Below, in pieces: positions 1 to 29,380 of a DNA stretch of 29,380 bases; the stretch's first letter is position 1, and each line of letters opens with the position of its first letter. The stretch lies in the IMG/VR virus record IMGVR_UViG_3300030380_004737, positions 1 to 29,380 of that record. One strand, given 5' to 3'. The position numbers were made by a program, and so were the translations under genes. The notes beneath the pieces are model-generated. The model was not told the origin of the DNA and did not search any database. It was given only the letters and a program-made list of their open reading frames with translations. Source of the stretch: a virus.

Positions 1-140
1 TCACCAACTGAAAGAAGATTCTTCTGGAATCAATACTTTGAACGAAGATATAAACCAGTCGAGAAAAAAATCAGGTTGATATTCTCTCGATATTTGGCCG
101 GAGCAAAAAAGCGATATCTTGAAAGAGCCGAAGAATATAT
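1..140. repeat. Terminal direct repeat, left copy (circular genome overlap)
   Basis: These 140 bases recur at 29241-29380 with two differences: G78 versus A29318 and A105 versus T29345. The offset is 29240, which gives a unique genome of about 29,240 bp. The repeat joins the portal 3' end (stop TGA at 77-79 here, TAA in the other copy) to the MuF gene, so the window is one full turn of a circle or circular permutation. The differences look like population variants rather than random error, because both are silent in the MuF frame and the first only exchanges one stop codon for another in the portal frame. Confidence 0.95.
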
Positions 141-795
141 TCAAGAGACACAAAGAAGAAGTATATCGAAACAGTTTGATATTAACATAGTCGATTGGTC
201 ATCTTTGAGAGGTCAAGATATCGAGGTCAGGAAAATCCGAGAGCTTGCAAAGTCTATCTATAGAGAACAGTATAACCAGATCGGCCAAGAAGAGATCAAC
301 AAGGTTATGCAAGAAGCCGATCTCGACTCAATACAATTCAAGTCCGGCGATGCTCTCGAAAGACATCTCCAGAAGATCAGCCGCGAGATAACAAAGACAA
401 CCATCGACAAGATCGAGAAGGCTGTCAAGAAGGGAGAAGAAGAAGGAGCATCAAAAGACGAGATCCTTGATTCGATTCGTGACTCTGTTGCATTTGATGA
501 ATCACGCGCGCAAACCATAGCGAGAACAGAATCAACAAAAGTGATCAACAGCGCAATCAATGAAGCCTATAATCAAGCCGGACAAAATGGAGTCAAGCTG
601 GAGAAAGTTTGGATAACGGAAAATGATGATGCTGTGAGAGAAACACATATAGAACTCGACGGTGTAACGATTCCAGTCAATGAAGACTTTGTGTCATCAT
701 CTGGAGCGACAACACAATCACCGGCTTCTTTTGGTGTAGCCGCTGAGGATATAAATTGTCGGTGTACAATGCAAGCTATGGTAGTTAAAGAATAA
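1..795 (+). CDS. MuF-like head morphogenesis protein (5' end continues across the circle junction)
   Basis: This is a minor head protein of the SPP1 gp7 / Mu gpF family, which sits with the portal inside the procapsid and is needed for head assembly or DNA ejection. The C-terminal half has the family signature: RAQTIARTE, then VWITENDDAVRETH, LDG, and a final INCRC. The nearest start-like codon is TTG at 76, but the frame is open and family-like upstream of it (FFWNQYFERRYKPVEKK at about 19-69), continues without ATG, GTG or TTG back to 29223, and that TTG is TTA in the other copy of the terminal repeat. The frame overlaps the portal 3' end in the -1 frame, so the protein is probably made by frameshifting from the portal at the A10 run (29221-29230). 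A separate, shorter protein from TTG76 (239 residues) is the alternative. Confidence 0.85.
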   Translation, partial: SPTERRFFWNQYFERRYKPVEKKIRLIFSRYLAGAKKRYLERAEEYIQETQRRSISKQFDINIVDWSSLRGQDIEVRKIRELAKSIYREQYNQIGQEEINKVMQEADLDSIQFKSGDALERHLQKISREITKTTIDKIEKAVKKGEEEGASKDEILDSIRDSVAFDESRAQTIARTESTKVINSAINEAYNQAGQNGVKLEKVWITENDDAVRETHIELDGVTIPVNEDFVSSSGATTQSPASFGVAAEDINCRCTMQAMVVKE

Positions 796-849: not shown

Positions 850-866
850 CTCAACGGGTGAATAAT

Positions 867-2357
867 ATGATAATCAAAAAACTATTTGTCGAACGAATCG
901 CTCCAGAAGAAGAGCCAGAAGACGCGCCTTTGATGGCTTCTTTTATTGCTTCCACTTCAGCCGAAGATCGTTATGGTGATGTCATAGCGCAATCATGGGA
1001 TTTGACGAACTATCGAAAAAATCCAATTATATTATTTAATCACGACGCTAACCAACTACCGATCGGAAAAGGCGAGGTCGATGTAGTAGATGGCAACTTG
1101 ATGATTGATATCACTTTTGATATGGACGATCCGAGAGCTGCCGAGATAGGCCGCAAAGTTAAAGCCGGTTTTCTCAATGCTGTGTCCGTTGGCTTTAATC
1201 CAATTGAGGCAGTTGAAAGATCAGAACTTCCAGATGGTCATTTTGCGAAAGGTGAGAAGGGGACATTCTTTAAGAGTGCCGAGCTTCTCGAAGTTTCAGT
1301 CGTGACGATTCCAGCAAATCAGGAAGCTGTATCATCCAAAGAATATCGAAACATTGAAAACGTCGAGTCGATGACTTTGTCGAAAGATCAAGCTATGGAA
1401 CTATACAAGTATATAGAACAACTTCGTGGGAGTGTTGAGGCACATGCGAGACAAGCCGATTTCATTGAAAGCCTTTTTTCAATGGATAAGAAATACTATG
1501 GTGATGATGAGGACTCGGAGTCAGAAGAAGAAGAGCCAAAGACCAAAGATGAAAACTATGGTTTGAAGTCAAACGCAAAAGAAGCAATGGAAGCACTTAA
1601 AGAGTCAACACAGAAAGCACTCATCAACAAAGCCGAACAGCATAATGAAGAATATGGAGACAATCCAGAGAAGAAACTAACGAATAGAAATTATTTAGCT
1701 GTTTCCTATCATCGAGGTTTAGCCGCATTTTTTGGAAATCCTTCTTCCGTTCGTCCCTCGGTTTCCAGTGCTGACCAATGGGCTATGGCTCGAGTTAATG
1801 GTCTTCTCTTTGCAATGAGGACCGGAAAGTTCAAAAGTAAACCGTACGATGTTGATCTACTACCGAAAGATCATCCACTATCAAACGCCGAAGAAGAGAA
1901 GCAAATCACAAAAGAGATATCTAACTTTCCGAAAGCCGGAGAAGATAAAAAGGTATCATTGCGAAACTCACAGTATCCGCTTTTCCCGCTTGATTATGCC
2001 GAGAAGATTAAACTCGAATATCCATCAATTTGGCGTAAAGGTGGAAACATCTTAGGAAATCAACAGTTTCGACTATTGAAAAAAATACAGGAAAACAACG
2101 GAGTGCCAGAAACAGACAACCAAGAAGAAGCGATCCGACTTCGTGAAGCTTGGGCGGCTCGACATCTTCAAGATTTCCGTGCAGCTGGCACCGTTGCACA
2201 AATAAAATGGCTTGTCATCGGTGAAAAAGGTCTTCAACATATGAAAGACACAATCAACGCCGAGATCGACAAACTTAAAAAGCTTGGCTCTTCGCCAAAA
2301 GATCAAGAGGCAAAATCTTTTGCTTTATTGTACGATCTATTAAAACAAACAGACTAA
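867..2357 (+). CDS. HK97-type prohead protease (S78) with long C-terminal extension
   Basis: This is the maturation protease that cleaves the capsid delta domain and scaffold. The N-terminal domain (about residues 1-160) carries the S78 catalytic set: His59 in LFNHD, Ser107 in NAVSVGF, and an acidic residue in LLEVSVVTIPAN (Glu142). An acidic linker with EESEEEE-type runs follows at about 210-230. Then comes a helical C-terminal domain to residue 496 containing RGLAAFFGNPSSVRPSVSSA and DQWAMARVN, a pattern I associate with internal phage structural proteins but cannot name securely. Typical S78 proteases are about 200 residues, so the rest may be a fused scaffold. I chose ATG867 because GGGTG (856-860) lies at Shine-Dalgarno distance. 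GTG858, three codons upstream, overlaps that site. Confidence 0.88.
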   Translation: MIIKKLFVERIAPEEEPEDAPLMASFIASTSAEDRYGDVIAQSWDLTNYRKNPIILFNHDANQLPIGKGEVDVVDGNLMIDITFDMDDPRAAEIGRKVKAGFLNAVSVGFNPIEAVERSELPDGHFAKGEKGTFFKSAELLEVSVVTIPANQEAVSSKEYRNIENVESMTLSKDQAMELYKYIEQLRGSVEAHARQADFIESLFSMDKKYYGDDEDSESEEEEPKTKDENYGLKSNAKEAMEALKESTQKALINKAEQHNEEYGDNPEKKLTNRNYLAVSYHRGLAAFFGNPSSVRPSVSSADQWAMARVNGLLFAMRTGKFKSKPYDVDLLPKDHPLSNAEEEKQITKEISNFPKAGEDKKVSLRNSQYPLFPLDYAEKIKLEYPSIWRKGGNILGNQQFRLLKKIQENNGVPETDNQEEAIRLREAWAARHLQDFRAAGTVAQIKWLVIGEKGLQHMKDTINAEIDKLKKLGSSPKDQEAKSFALLYDLLKQTD

Positions 2358-7579: not shown

Positions 7580-8068
7580 ATGAAACATATAATCAATCAA
7601 ATAATTTCACAATCAAAATTTACAGTTTCCGCTTTTGCTGGAAAGCTACTTCTTGAAGGTCGGATTCTTTCACCGAGTGAAGCACACGCGGCCGGTCTAA
7701 CATCTGGATTGTTAGCGGCTGCGATGGCTGATCCAAAACAACTCCAAGCCATGAGTCAAATCAAAGATGATGAAACAGATCAGAACTTCGAAGAGATTCT
7801 CCAGCTTGCTAAAAGAATAAGACCGGAAAACATCGAAGCCATGGGAGAAGCACACGACAAGATTCTTTGTCGAGTTATTAAAAGAGCATCTTCCGACAAT
7901 GGCGAGACATGGCAGAATATCATTCTTGTTGAAGGAGTCGATCAACAAGATGCGGAAAAAAACCGGCTTTGGGTCGGCATGATTCCAGAAGATGACCGAA
8001 AGCAAATCCTCGATCATGCTTTACAAGGTCACAAGAAAGCCGTCGAAAGTATAAGGGGGTCACTTTGA
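7580..8068 (+). CDS. Tail assembly chaperone, short (unshifted) product
   Basis: A 162-residue protein between tail tube and tape measure, the position of lambda gpG. It starts at ATG7580, two bases after the previous stop. It has helical segments (FTVSAFAGKLLLEGRILSP, AAAMADPKQLQAM, NFEEILQLAKRIRPEN) and ends in ESIRGSL. The stop at 8066-8068 comes just after a G5 run, where ribosomes can shift to produce the long form. Short and long forms together coat the tape measure during tail assembly in this class of phage. Confidence 0.75.
   Translation: MKHIINQIISQSKFTVSAFAGKLLLEGRILSPSEAHAAGLTSGLLAAAMADPKQLQAMSQIKDDETDQNFEEILQLAKRIRPENIEAMGEAHDKILCRVIKRASSDNGETWQNIILVEGVDQQDAEKNRLWVGMIPEDDRKQILDHALQGHKKAVESIRGSL
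8055..8060 (+). promoter_or_regulatory. Programmed frameshift site in the tail chaperone (GGGGGT)
   Basis: The zero frame reads ATA AGG GGG TCA CTT TGA. The downstream frame is closed by TAA at 8052-8054 and opens at 8055, so the shift must occur between 8055 and 8065, and the G5 run is there. A -2 slip re-pairs a GGG tRNA from 8057-8059 to 8055-8057 and continues at GGT8058. A +1 slip would continue at CAC8061. Phage Mu uses a G5-containing site for a -2 shift in its own tail chaperone. Confidence 0.8.
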
Positions 8069-8288
8069 AAACGATCCTCAAATCTTCGATCTGTTTGATA
8101 TCTTGGCCGATAGTTATGGTGTCTTACCTTCTGATCTTTTGGGCCTCTCTTTTCAAGAGATCATGTTCAATATCAGGTGTTTGAAAAGCCGATCCTATCG
8201 TATGAATAAATTGATGAAGCAAAGTAACAGAAAAAAAGCTATGTTATTTCCGACTGTCAACATTTCTGATTTGCTGAGAAGTTTATAA
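8058..8288 (+). CDS. Tail assembly chaperone, frameshift-encoded C-terminal part (gpT-like)
   Basis: The 76-codon downstream frame reads GHFENDPQIFDLFDILADSY and then GVLPSDLLGLSFQEI. The DLF..LA..YG..PS.LL.LS..E pattern is typical of the second part of phage tail chaperones. The first codons before TTG8103 have no ATG or GTG, so independent translation is unlikely. Fused by a -2 slip at 8055-8059 to the first 160 residues, it gives a protein of about 236 residues. It ends one base before the tape measure start. Confidence 0.75.
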   Translation, partial: GHFENDPQIFDLFDILADSYGVLPSDLLGLSFQEIMFNIRCLKSRSYRMNKLMKQSNRKKAMLFPTVNISDLLRSL

Positions 8289-27984: not shown

Positions 27985-29319
27985 ATGTCTATATTTGATT
28001 CCTTCTTTGGATTGTTTCGAACTCGATCGGCGGCCAAGCTTGAAAGTAAGCCAACAAAAGAAAATCATGGTTCTTCGTGGAACTCACCGAATGGAGTTCG
28101 AAATCCTTTTAATGCTCTTACAGCTTTGGAAGCATACGGAAATCACGGGTATCTATATGCGGCTATCACTCGATCTTGTGAGGACCTTGCGGCTCTTCCT
28201 CTTAAAGTTATAAAGGGAAAAGGAAAAGATGCGGTCGAGATCACTGATCATCCACTCACCGCACTACTCGATCAGCCTTCTATTTCTGTTGATGGTTATT
28301 TATTTCGAAATCAGATCATACTCGATCTTATCTTATCCGGTTCTTGTTATTGTCTCATGTTGGGAGTCAACGAGAAGAAGCCGGACTCGGTTGTTCGATT
28401 ACATCCGGATGAAGTTCGAATCGTGACAAATGAATTAGGGATCGTTGGATATGAACATACATCAAACGGTCAATCAGTATTGTATCCACCGGAGAGAATA
28501 CTAACCGCGAGGAATGCAAGTTATGAGAAAGGACCAAAATCGCTCTTTGGAACTGGAGCGATCGAGAGTTTACGCCGAGAACTCAACGCCGATCTAAATA
28601 CGCAAAATCTAACAAGCCAAGCCAGCGCACAAGGTCATCCGGATATTTTGATCTCACCGAAAGACGGAGACATTTGGCCGGCCGAAACCAGAAGACAAAT
28701 ATCCGATAACTATTCGAAGCTCGCAAAGTCCGGTGGTGTCATGGTCCTATCAGGTGAAGCAGATGTAACACCTCTCAACGTCTCGCCGAAAGATATGGAG
28801 TTCGAGACAGTCAGAACAATGACCATGCAAATCATCAGTGCGGTGATCGGAACTCCGCCAAGTGTTCTTGGTTTGCCTTCTGCTAACTATGCAACTTCGA
28901 GATCTCAAAGTATCAACTATTGGGAACTGCAGAAGAAGCGCGCCAAGCGAATCGAGATCATGCTTACAAAGTTAGCGCGATTGTTCGATCTTGATCTTTC
29001 TGTTCAACATGACTTTTCAAGCGTTGAACCGCTGCAGAGTGTAAGAGATGCACAACTTGCACGAATACAACTTCATATCATGAACGGGATGCGCGCCGAA
29101 GATGCTTATGCGTTTGAAGGTTTACATGATGCACCGATCGGAAAGATGGCCAGCAAAGAAGAGCCTTCTCTTTTAGATGAAAAATCACAGAAGACCGTTC
29201 TTAGACTCTTTGAGAATACTAAAAAAAAAACTTTGATAACTCACCAACTGAAAGAAGATTCTTCTGGAATCAATACTTTGAACGAAGATATAAACCAGTC
29301 GAGAAAAAAATCAGGTTAA
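27985..29319 (+). CDS. Portal protein, HK97 type
   Basis: A 444-residue protein forming the dodecameric DNA entry ring. It has features of the HK97-type portal: SFFGLFRTRS, HGYLYAAITRSCEDLAALPL, DHPLTALLDQPS, then a region with LILSGSCYCLMLG, VRLHPDEVRIV, and MTMQIISAVIGTPPSVLGLP with QSINYWELQKKRAKRIE. I chose ATG27985, which has GGAG (27973-27976) at the right distance. GTG27964 in frame falls inside the operator. At the A10 run (29221-29230) ribosomes may shift -1 into the MuF frame. The unshifted end reads KTLITHQLKEDSSG and stops at 29317-29319. Confidence 0.9.
   Translation: MSIFDSFFGLFRTRSAAKLESKPTKENHGSSWNSPNGVRNPFNALTALEAYGNHGYLYAAITRSCEDLAALPLKVIKGKGKDAVEITDHPLTALLDQPSISVDGYLFRNQIILDLILSGSCYCLMLGVNEKKPDSVVRLHPDEVRIVTNELGIVGYEHTSNGQSVLYPPERILTARNASYEKGPKSLFGTGAIESLRRELNADLNTQNLTSQASAQGHPDILISPKDGDIWPAETRRQISDNYSKLAKSGGVMVLSGEADVTPLNVSPKDMEFETVRTMTMQIISAVIGTPPSVLGLPSANYATSRSQSINYWELQKKRAKRIEIMLTKLARLFDLDLSVQHDFSSVEPLQSVRDAQLARIQLHIMNGMRAEDAYAFEGLHDAPIGKMASKEEPSLLDEKSQKTVLRLFENTKKKTLITHQLKEDSSGINTLNEDINQSRKKSG
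29221..29231 (+). promoter_or_regulatory. A10 slippery run: candidate -1 frameshift site between portal and MuF
   Basis: The portal frame reads ACT AAA AAA AAA ACT TTG. A -1 shift over the A run gives AAA AAA AAC TTT GAT AAC and enters the MuF frame, which is closed by TAA at 29220-29222 just before the run and has no start codon between 29223 and the TTG equivalent to position 76. Long A runs support ribosomal or transcriptional slippage. A homopolymer length error in the assembly would look the same. Confidence 0.55.
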
Positions 29320-29380
29320 TATTCTCTCGATATTTGGCCGGAGCTAAAAAGCGATATCTTGAAAGAGCCGAAGAATATAT
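29223..29380 (+). CDS. MuF reading frame, 5' part (continues at position 141 of the other copy)
   Basis: From 29223 the frame reads KKNFDNSPTERRFFWNQYFE and continues RRYKPVEKKIRLIFSRYLAG, the basic and aromatic helix that begins MuF domains. It overlaps the portal gene by about 97 bases. TTA at 29316-29318 replaces the TTG start candidate of the other copy, so this copy has no start codon here at all. Through a -1 shift, portal and MuF would be joined in a protein of about 680 residues. Confidence 0.55.
29241..29380. repeat. Terminal direct repeat, right copy
   Basis: Same 140 bases as 1-140, with A instead of G at 29318 and T instead of A at 29345. It shows the window closes on itself. Confidence 0.95.

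Follow-up and report, generated by a model that had tools for sequence, protein, structure and literature searches.

The junction between the portal and MuF genes of the phage recorded as IMGVR_UViG_3300030380_004737 raises the question of how a MuF protein can be made from a reading frame that opens inside the upstream gene and has no start codon there. The window analysed here is the whole of that virus record (G000; 29,380 nucleotides of one strand), which represents a circular genome of ~29,240 bp. The portal and MuF domains both score above the profile cut-off and occur in that order, and both halves match PHROG 2662, the portal-MuF fusion family. Fusions of the PHROG 2662 type are encoded in one continuous frame, whereas no such frame exists in the window or in the related contigs L003, L008 and L009, where MuF lies in the −1 frame. 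The features of the locus are collected in Table 1.

Table 1. Features of the portal-MuF junction, in window coordinates.
Feature	Position	Strand	Remarks
Portal ORF	27985..29319	+	Zero frame; ATG with GGAG upstream; Phage_portal, PF04860
A10 slip site (proposed)	29221..29230	+	Zero-frame codons AAA AAA AAA A; near the end of the portal ORF
MuF frame, 5′ part	29223..29380	+	−1 frame; 5′ of any start codon; continues at position 1
MuF frame, remainder	1..795	+	Phage_Mu_F, PF04233; 264 codons in the window
TTGA	76..79	+	TTG (76–78) is the only start-like codon and overlaps the portal stop TGA (77–79)
Dual-frame overlap	29231..29319	+	Portal tail and MuF read from the same bases
Second slippery run, A7 (heptamer A AAA AAA)	29304..29310 = 64–70	+	Direct sequence reading
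Terminal overlap, right-hand copy	29241..29380	+	140 bp; left copy 1–140

The portal frame crosses the run as ACT AAA AAA AAA ACT TTG and ends at TAA (29317–29319), or at TGA in the left copy of the terminal overlap, so that an unslipped portal carries an unrelated tail of 29 residues after KKK (TLITHQLKEDSSGINTLNEDINQSRKKSG, which includes EDSSGINTLNEDINQSR). The last stop in the MuF frame is TAA at 29220–29222 and the frame therefore opens within the A10 run, after which it stays open across the terminal overlap to position 795, as read from the window and as seen in the three contigs that cross the join. Between the run and TTG-76 lie 28 codons with no ATG, GTG or TTG. On the run, the opening of the MuF frame and the missing start codon the preliminary description had read the locus correctly. 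Its central proposal, that a −1 slip at the A10 run joins the two frames, stands as far as the fusion is concerned: a portal-MuF product joined in −1 at A10 is supported by comparative evidence, namely fused homologues, a conserved run, purifying selection on MuF-frame codons that lack a start and the absence of a usable start in several split relatives. The mechanism has been refined, as an A added by RNA polymerase would give the same protein.

A homopolymer error is an obvious concern, since such errors are common in sequencing and assembly, fused relatives are known and the real gene might simply occupy one frame. The A10 run and both frames are, however, unchanged in four contigs from separate assemblies with up to 7% divergence in the portal gene, the other three being L003 (100% nucleotide identity in the portal) and L008 and L009 (93–94%), each with a single copy of the overlap. 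Because these three contigs cross the join with A10 and both frames, the run is neither an assembly error nor a contig-end artefact; with A10 also present in a second lineage, represented by three contigs that come from two IMG samples, we regard an error as scarcely credible. A pattern search tolerant of run length recovered only L003, L008 and L009, with no length variant. As a separate observation, the two copies of the terminal overlap in the window differ at two sites (78 G/A and 105 A/T), which suggests a mixture of strain variants at the ends of the contig.

Taken alone, the window is weak evidence for slippage, because an A10 run somewhere in its coding sequence is unremarkable by synonymous shuffling (P 0.28), and the genomes of the window, L008 and L009 contain further coding runs of A9 or longer near gene starts. 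Variation within the lineage bears on the MuF frame, though only modestly by itself. The window differs from L008 at 122 of 2064 sites and from L009 at 107. In the overlap 3′ of the run L008 is unchanged; L009 has two changes there, and at both MuF keeps its residue (R/R, Y/Y) and the portal tail does not (N/K, I/T). These two variable sites compare with a mean of 7.6 in segments of the same size, 4% of which match, and the chance that two random changes would both be MuF-silent is about 0.06 in a window-level substitution test, which is weak by itself. Further downstream each pair shows about 30 silent against 5–6 missense changes, and by these substitution counts MuF there is under purifying selection.

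Relatives with 64–68% portal identity are single-frame portal-MuF fusions, and portal and MuF share one frame in L004, L005, L006 and L007. Both L004 and L005 align with the window across the join, including the MuF residues encoded 5′ of TTG-76 (ERRFFWNQYFERRYKPVEKKIR in the window and YRRRYWDDYYQKRYIPAHKKMR in L004, 10 of 22 identical by eye), which bears out their earlier reading as family-like. In addition, the TTGA of the left overlap copy is TTAA in the right-hand copy, as had been described, so that TTG becomes TTA, silent in MuF, and the portal stop TGA becomes TAA. These residues and this substitution weigh against MuF being a separate protein produced by re-initiation at TTG-76. Coupling through overlapping stop and start codons is common, and it remains possible in the window lineage because the portal stop overlaps the TTG in the left copy, L003, L008 and L009; the overlap of L127 even contains an ATG. 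Yet TTG-76 has no well-spaced Shine-Dalgarno sequence, the other listed genes start with ATG, the upstream residues align with fused relatives and stay MuF-silent, and an equivalent start is missing in L109, L035 and L102, so that we consider re-initiation improbable.

In a structural model of the relative L108 (mean pLDDT 69, 15 sequences), KKK falls at residues about 409–411, where a low-confidence linker (378–407) joins the helix leading into MuF, and from this position the short product would keep the whole portal domain. Four fused members (L033, L111, L117 and L122) have a second A9 or A10 run within the portal-MuF linker. Separately, the prohead protease of the window (858–2357) carries two additional domains at its C-terminus, about 45% identical to those that in L027-type relatives are inserted between portal and MuF, which by sequence similarity is domain shuffling between head genes.

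The broader comparison covered a clade of uncultured phages of about 28–31 kb gathered by wider scans. An A9–A11 run lies between portal and MuF in 25 of the 27 non-redundant members with both domains (the exceptions being L004 and L005), where synonymous shuffles predict 11.6. No run of A9 or longer was found within the portal or MuF domains of these 27 members, and the flanking ORFs (150 aa or more, 75 kb together) had none either. Five whole genomes of relatives (G003–G006 and G008, without G007; 29.6–30.6 kb, 37–48% GC) have sense-strand coding runs of A9 or longer solely at this junction; G004 and G006 have no second run of that length on either strand. Alignment of related phages answers two checks proposed in the preliminary description: fused single-frame homologues exist, and the run is conserved. 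The arrangement it did not recognise from other phages is likewise real, but it is not peculiar to the window phage: the run is clade-wide and occurs even in single-frame members.

MuF is split from portal in the window, L008, L009, L109, L026, L035, L102/L126, L127 and L128. In all of these MuF is in −1, the run falls inside the overlap and one added A is needed; the other members carry the run in frame. The portal tree requires four changes of the split label, three of them forced by well-supported branches; the split state thus appears to have changed at least three to four times, each time with MuF in −1 and the run inside the overlap. Clade members are related and their counts are not independent trials, and for this reason the argument rests on the tree, the separate lineages and a codon test within lineages. 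On these grounds chance does not explain why the run recurs at one and the same junction throughout the clade. The junction shows one of the marks of slippage genes of the dnaX/tssM type, a conserved run of at least nine A separating two coding parts. Fused members have long linkers with many Lys residues, in which some runs are to be expected. Stops in the alternative frames of these members come no sooner than by chance, so that rapid out-of-frame termination was rejected as a selected trait. In a group of 12 fused members the three codons of the run are all AAA at 69–92% nucleotide identity, against 6 of 33 for the remaining Lys columns that these members share.

A second split lineage (lineage B: L026, L035 and L102) also has A10 in the overlap and MuF in −1, the run being shifted in phase by one base from that of the window. 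Its three AAA codons are invariant at 76–78% nucleotide identity; of the 18 further Lys columns that these contigs share, just 3 consist entirely of AAA. From the portal stop to the first shared ATG there are 30–39 MuF-frame codons with pN/pS of 0.14–0.22; L102 has no ATG, GTG or TTG in this stretch, and the only such codon is a GTG in L026 and a TTG in L035, which the other contigs do not share. The low pN/pS argues that these codons are translated, most simply through the run. Purifying selection on start-less MuF-frame codons is a direct observation, as are the run, the two frames and their conservation. In the split member L109 no start occurs for 90 codons beyond its A9. Lineage B also has a conserved domain (FSVPKGVKEELEKGLQWH...) between portal and MuF (L026:3207–3460 and its equivalents in L035 and L102), with no Pfam match across this inter-domain region. 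Two further split loci were set aside: L050 (5072–5180), which belongs to a different group and has a T9 run in a −1 portal/MuF overlap, but where slippage is uncertain because an ATG is available, and L042, split in +1 without a run and left out of the counts.

The same comparisons bear on phase variation, in which run length would shift at DNA replication and genomes would switch between fused and split without any slippage during expression. Lengths of 9, 10 and 11 are indeed represented, and a set of close relatives (L127, L128 and L130) includes both states. Against this, no length variant was seen among contigs of the window lineage, and the split state is stable across 6–7% nucleotide divergence in that lineage (A) and 22–24% in lineage B, with purifying selection on the MuF frame. 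This stability and selection indicate that the split state is not a transient off state, and we think phase variation very unlikely.

We therefore return to slippage, and consider it highly probable that A10 is a functional slip site giving both portal alone and a portal-MuF fusion, in the absence of RNA, ribosome-profiling or protein data. Most transcripts and ribosomes would stay in register and yield portal with its short unrelated tail; in a minority, RNA polymerase slippage would add one A to the mRNA (A10 to A11) or, alternatively, the ribosome would shift −1 on A AAA AAA, either event giving the same portal-KKK-NFDNSPTER-MuF product. Portal rings would then be mixed, some subunits bearing MuF, which would fix the MuF copy number and place MuF inside the head. 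For the window phage, full-length MuF would depend on such a slip. In frame-joined relatives the run would work in reverse, with the fusion as the main product and portal alone as the lesser one. The mixed ring is inferred, and so is the slip, together with its type and its rate.

Which machinery slips is harder to decide. Ribosomal −1 frameshifting alone, without RNA polymerase slippage, is a possibility that we hold only tentatively. The zero frame of the window contains an in-register A AAA AAA heptamer, zero-frame AAA AAA AAA is found in every A10 case, heptamers of the A A AAA AAR type are among the shift-prone motifs of E. coli (PMC4066793), and −1 frameshifting is common in phages. Seven A would nevertheless be enough for the ribosome, yet 9–11 nt are retained; there is also no clear Shine-Dalgarno sequence upstream, and no 3′ stem-loop was found, with no fold beating shuffles in the window, L009, L026, L035 or L102 in a test that did not extend to pseudoknots. 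A stimulatory 3′ structure usually accompanies programmed −1 frameshifting but is not required for it. Absence of downstream structure is what simple slippage on an A run would lead one to expect. Given this absence, the excess length of the runs and the dnaX and tssM precedents, transcriptional slippage is at least as likely as ribosomal slippage and is modestly favoured, by judgement and not by any measurement; ribosomal slippage may add to it. We prefer A10 to the A7 run as the main site because conserved MuF residues lie upstream of A7. In E. coli, coding sequences hardly ever contain AAA AAA AAA (PMC5009743). For the clade as a whole we lean, without great confidence, towards a single A9–A11 transcriptional slip site that sets how many portal subunits are bare relative to those that carry MuF, the default product having flipped several times while the run was kept.

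Each component has precedents. Portal-MuF fusions were already known in phages, as the preliminary description stated: PHROG 2662, Geobacillus phage GBK2, Bacillus phage Silence and Microbacterium clusters EA3/EA5/EA8/EB (PMC7302621) encode portal then MuF in a single frame as one polypeptide, like the proposed product, although in GBK2 and Silence, unlike the clade, the join has no run of A8 or longer. The closest parallel is phage Emery (KC595516, PMC4168068), annotated with a predicted −1 join at an A run between gp4, a 520-aa upstream ORF, and gp5, an SPP1 gp7/MuF-like ORF; Emery is, however, an unrelated myophage with A6 instead of A9–A11, portal matches of the upstream ORF are weak, and its authors termed the join head morphogenesis with the products unverified (PMC4168068). 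Outside phage heads, the A9 of Thermus thermophilus dnaX, with about 50% slippage, and the A10 of two-ORF dnaX genes give two products in a set ratio, and as in our clade the run is in frame in some genomes and out of frame in others, but dnaX encodes a DNA polymerase subunit (PMC1088944, PMC3711429). The A11 of Citrobacter rodentium tssM lies just 5′ of a stop, an extra A restores full length, and both lengths and their ratio are required, in this case for a bacterial secretion gene (PMC4256274). Papers on a Wolbachia GTA frameshift and on Silenusvirus were discarded as precedents, as they concern a hydrolase and a lysin, respectively. Portal-MuF fusions, slippage on A runs and one predicted A6 shift (Emery) are thus known separately, and in the literature, subscription papers excluded, we found no description of portal/MuF slippage at long A runs across a clade; such use appears to be undescribed.

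Searches for a host or prophage with the alignment of the window gave no match, and a broader alignment found only distant portals in two Patescibacteria MAGs (L106 and L107), too remote for a host to be assigned. No cultured relative was found above about 30% identity. Elsewhere in the window, an ORF at 7580–8068 with no PHROG match ends AGG GGG TCA CTT TGA and is accompanied by a second ORF (GGHFENDPQIFDLF...) in the +1/−2 frame with no early ATG; the region 7580–8288 is likely a tail assembly chaperone pair, its G run suggesting a G/GT-type shift.

On a practical level, gene callers are liable to split or truncate MuF in such phages. MuF-type proteins are present in few copies on a portal of 12 subunits, and in SPP1 the MuF-type protein gp7, encoded separately from the gp6 portal, is kept to few copies in the procapsid by portal binding, with stoichiometry set by binding and no recoding (PMC6316719). 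By inference, a ratio set by slippage would limit the copies of a fused MuF in a comparable way, and the slip site would be a simple answer to how a fusion avoids twelve. In this clade a conserved homopolymer may thus keep its role while the default frame flips.
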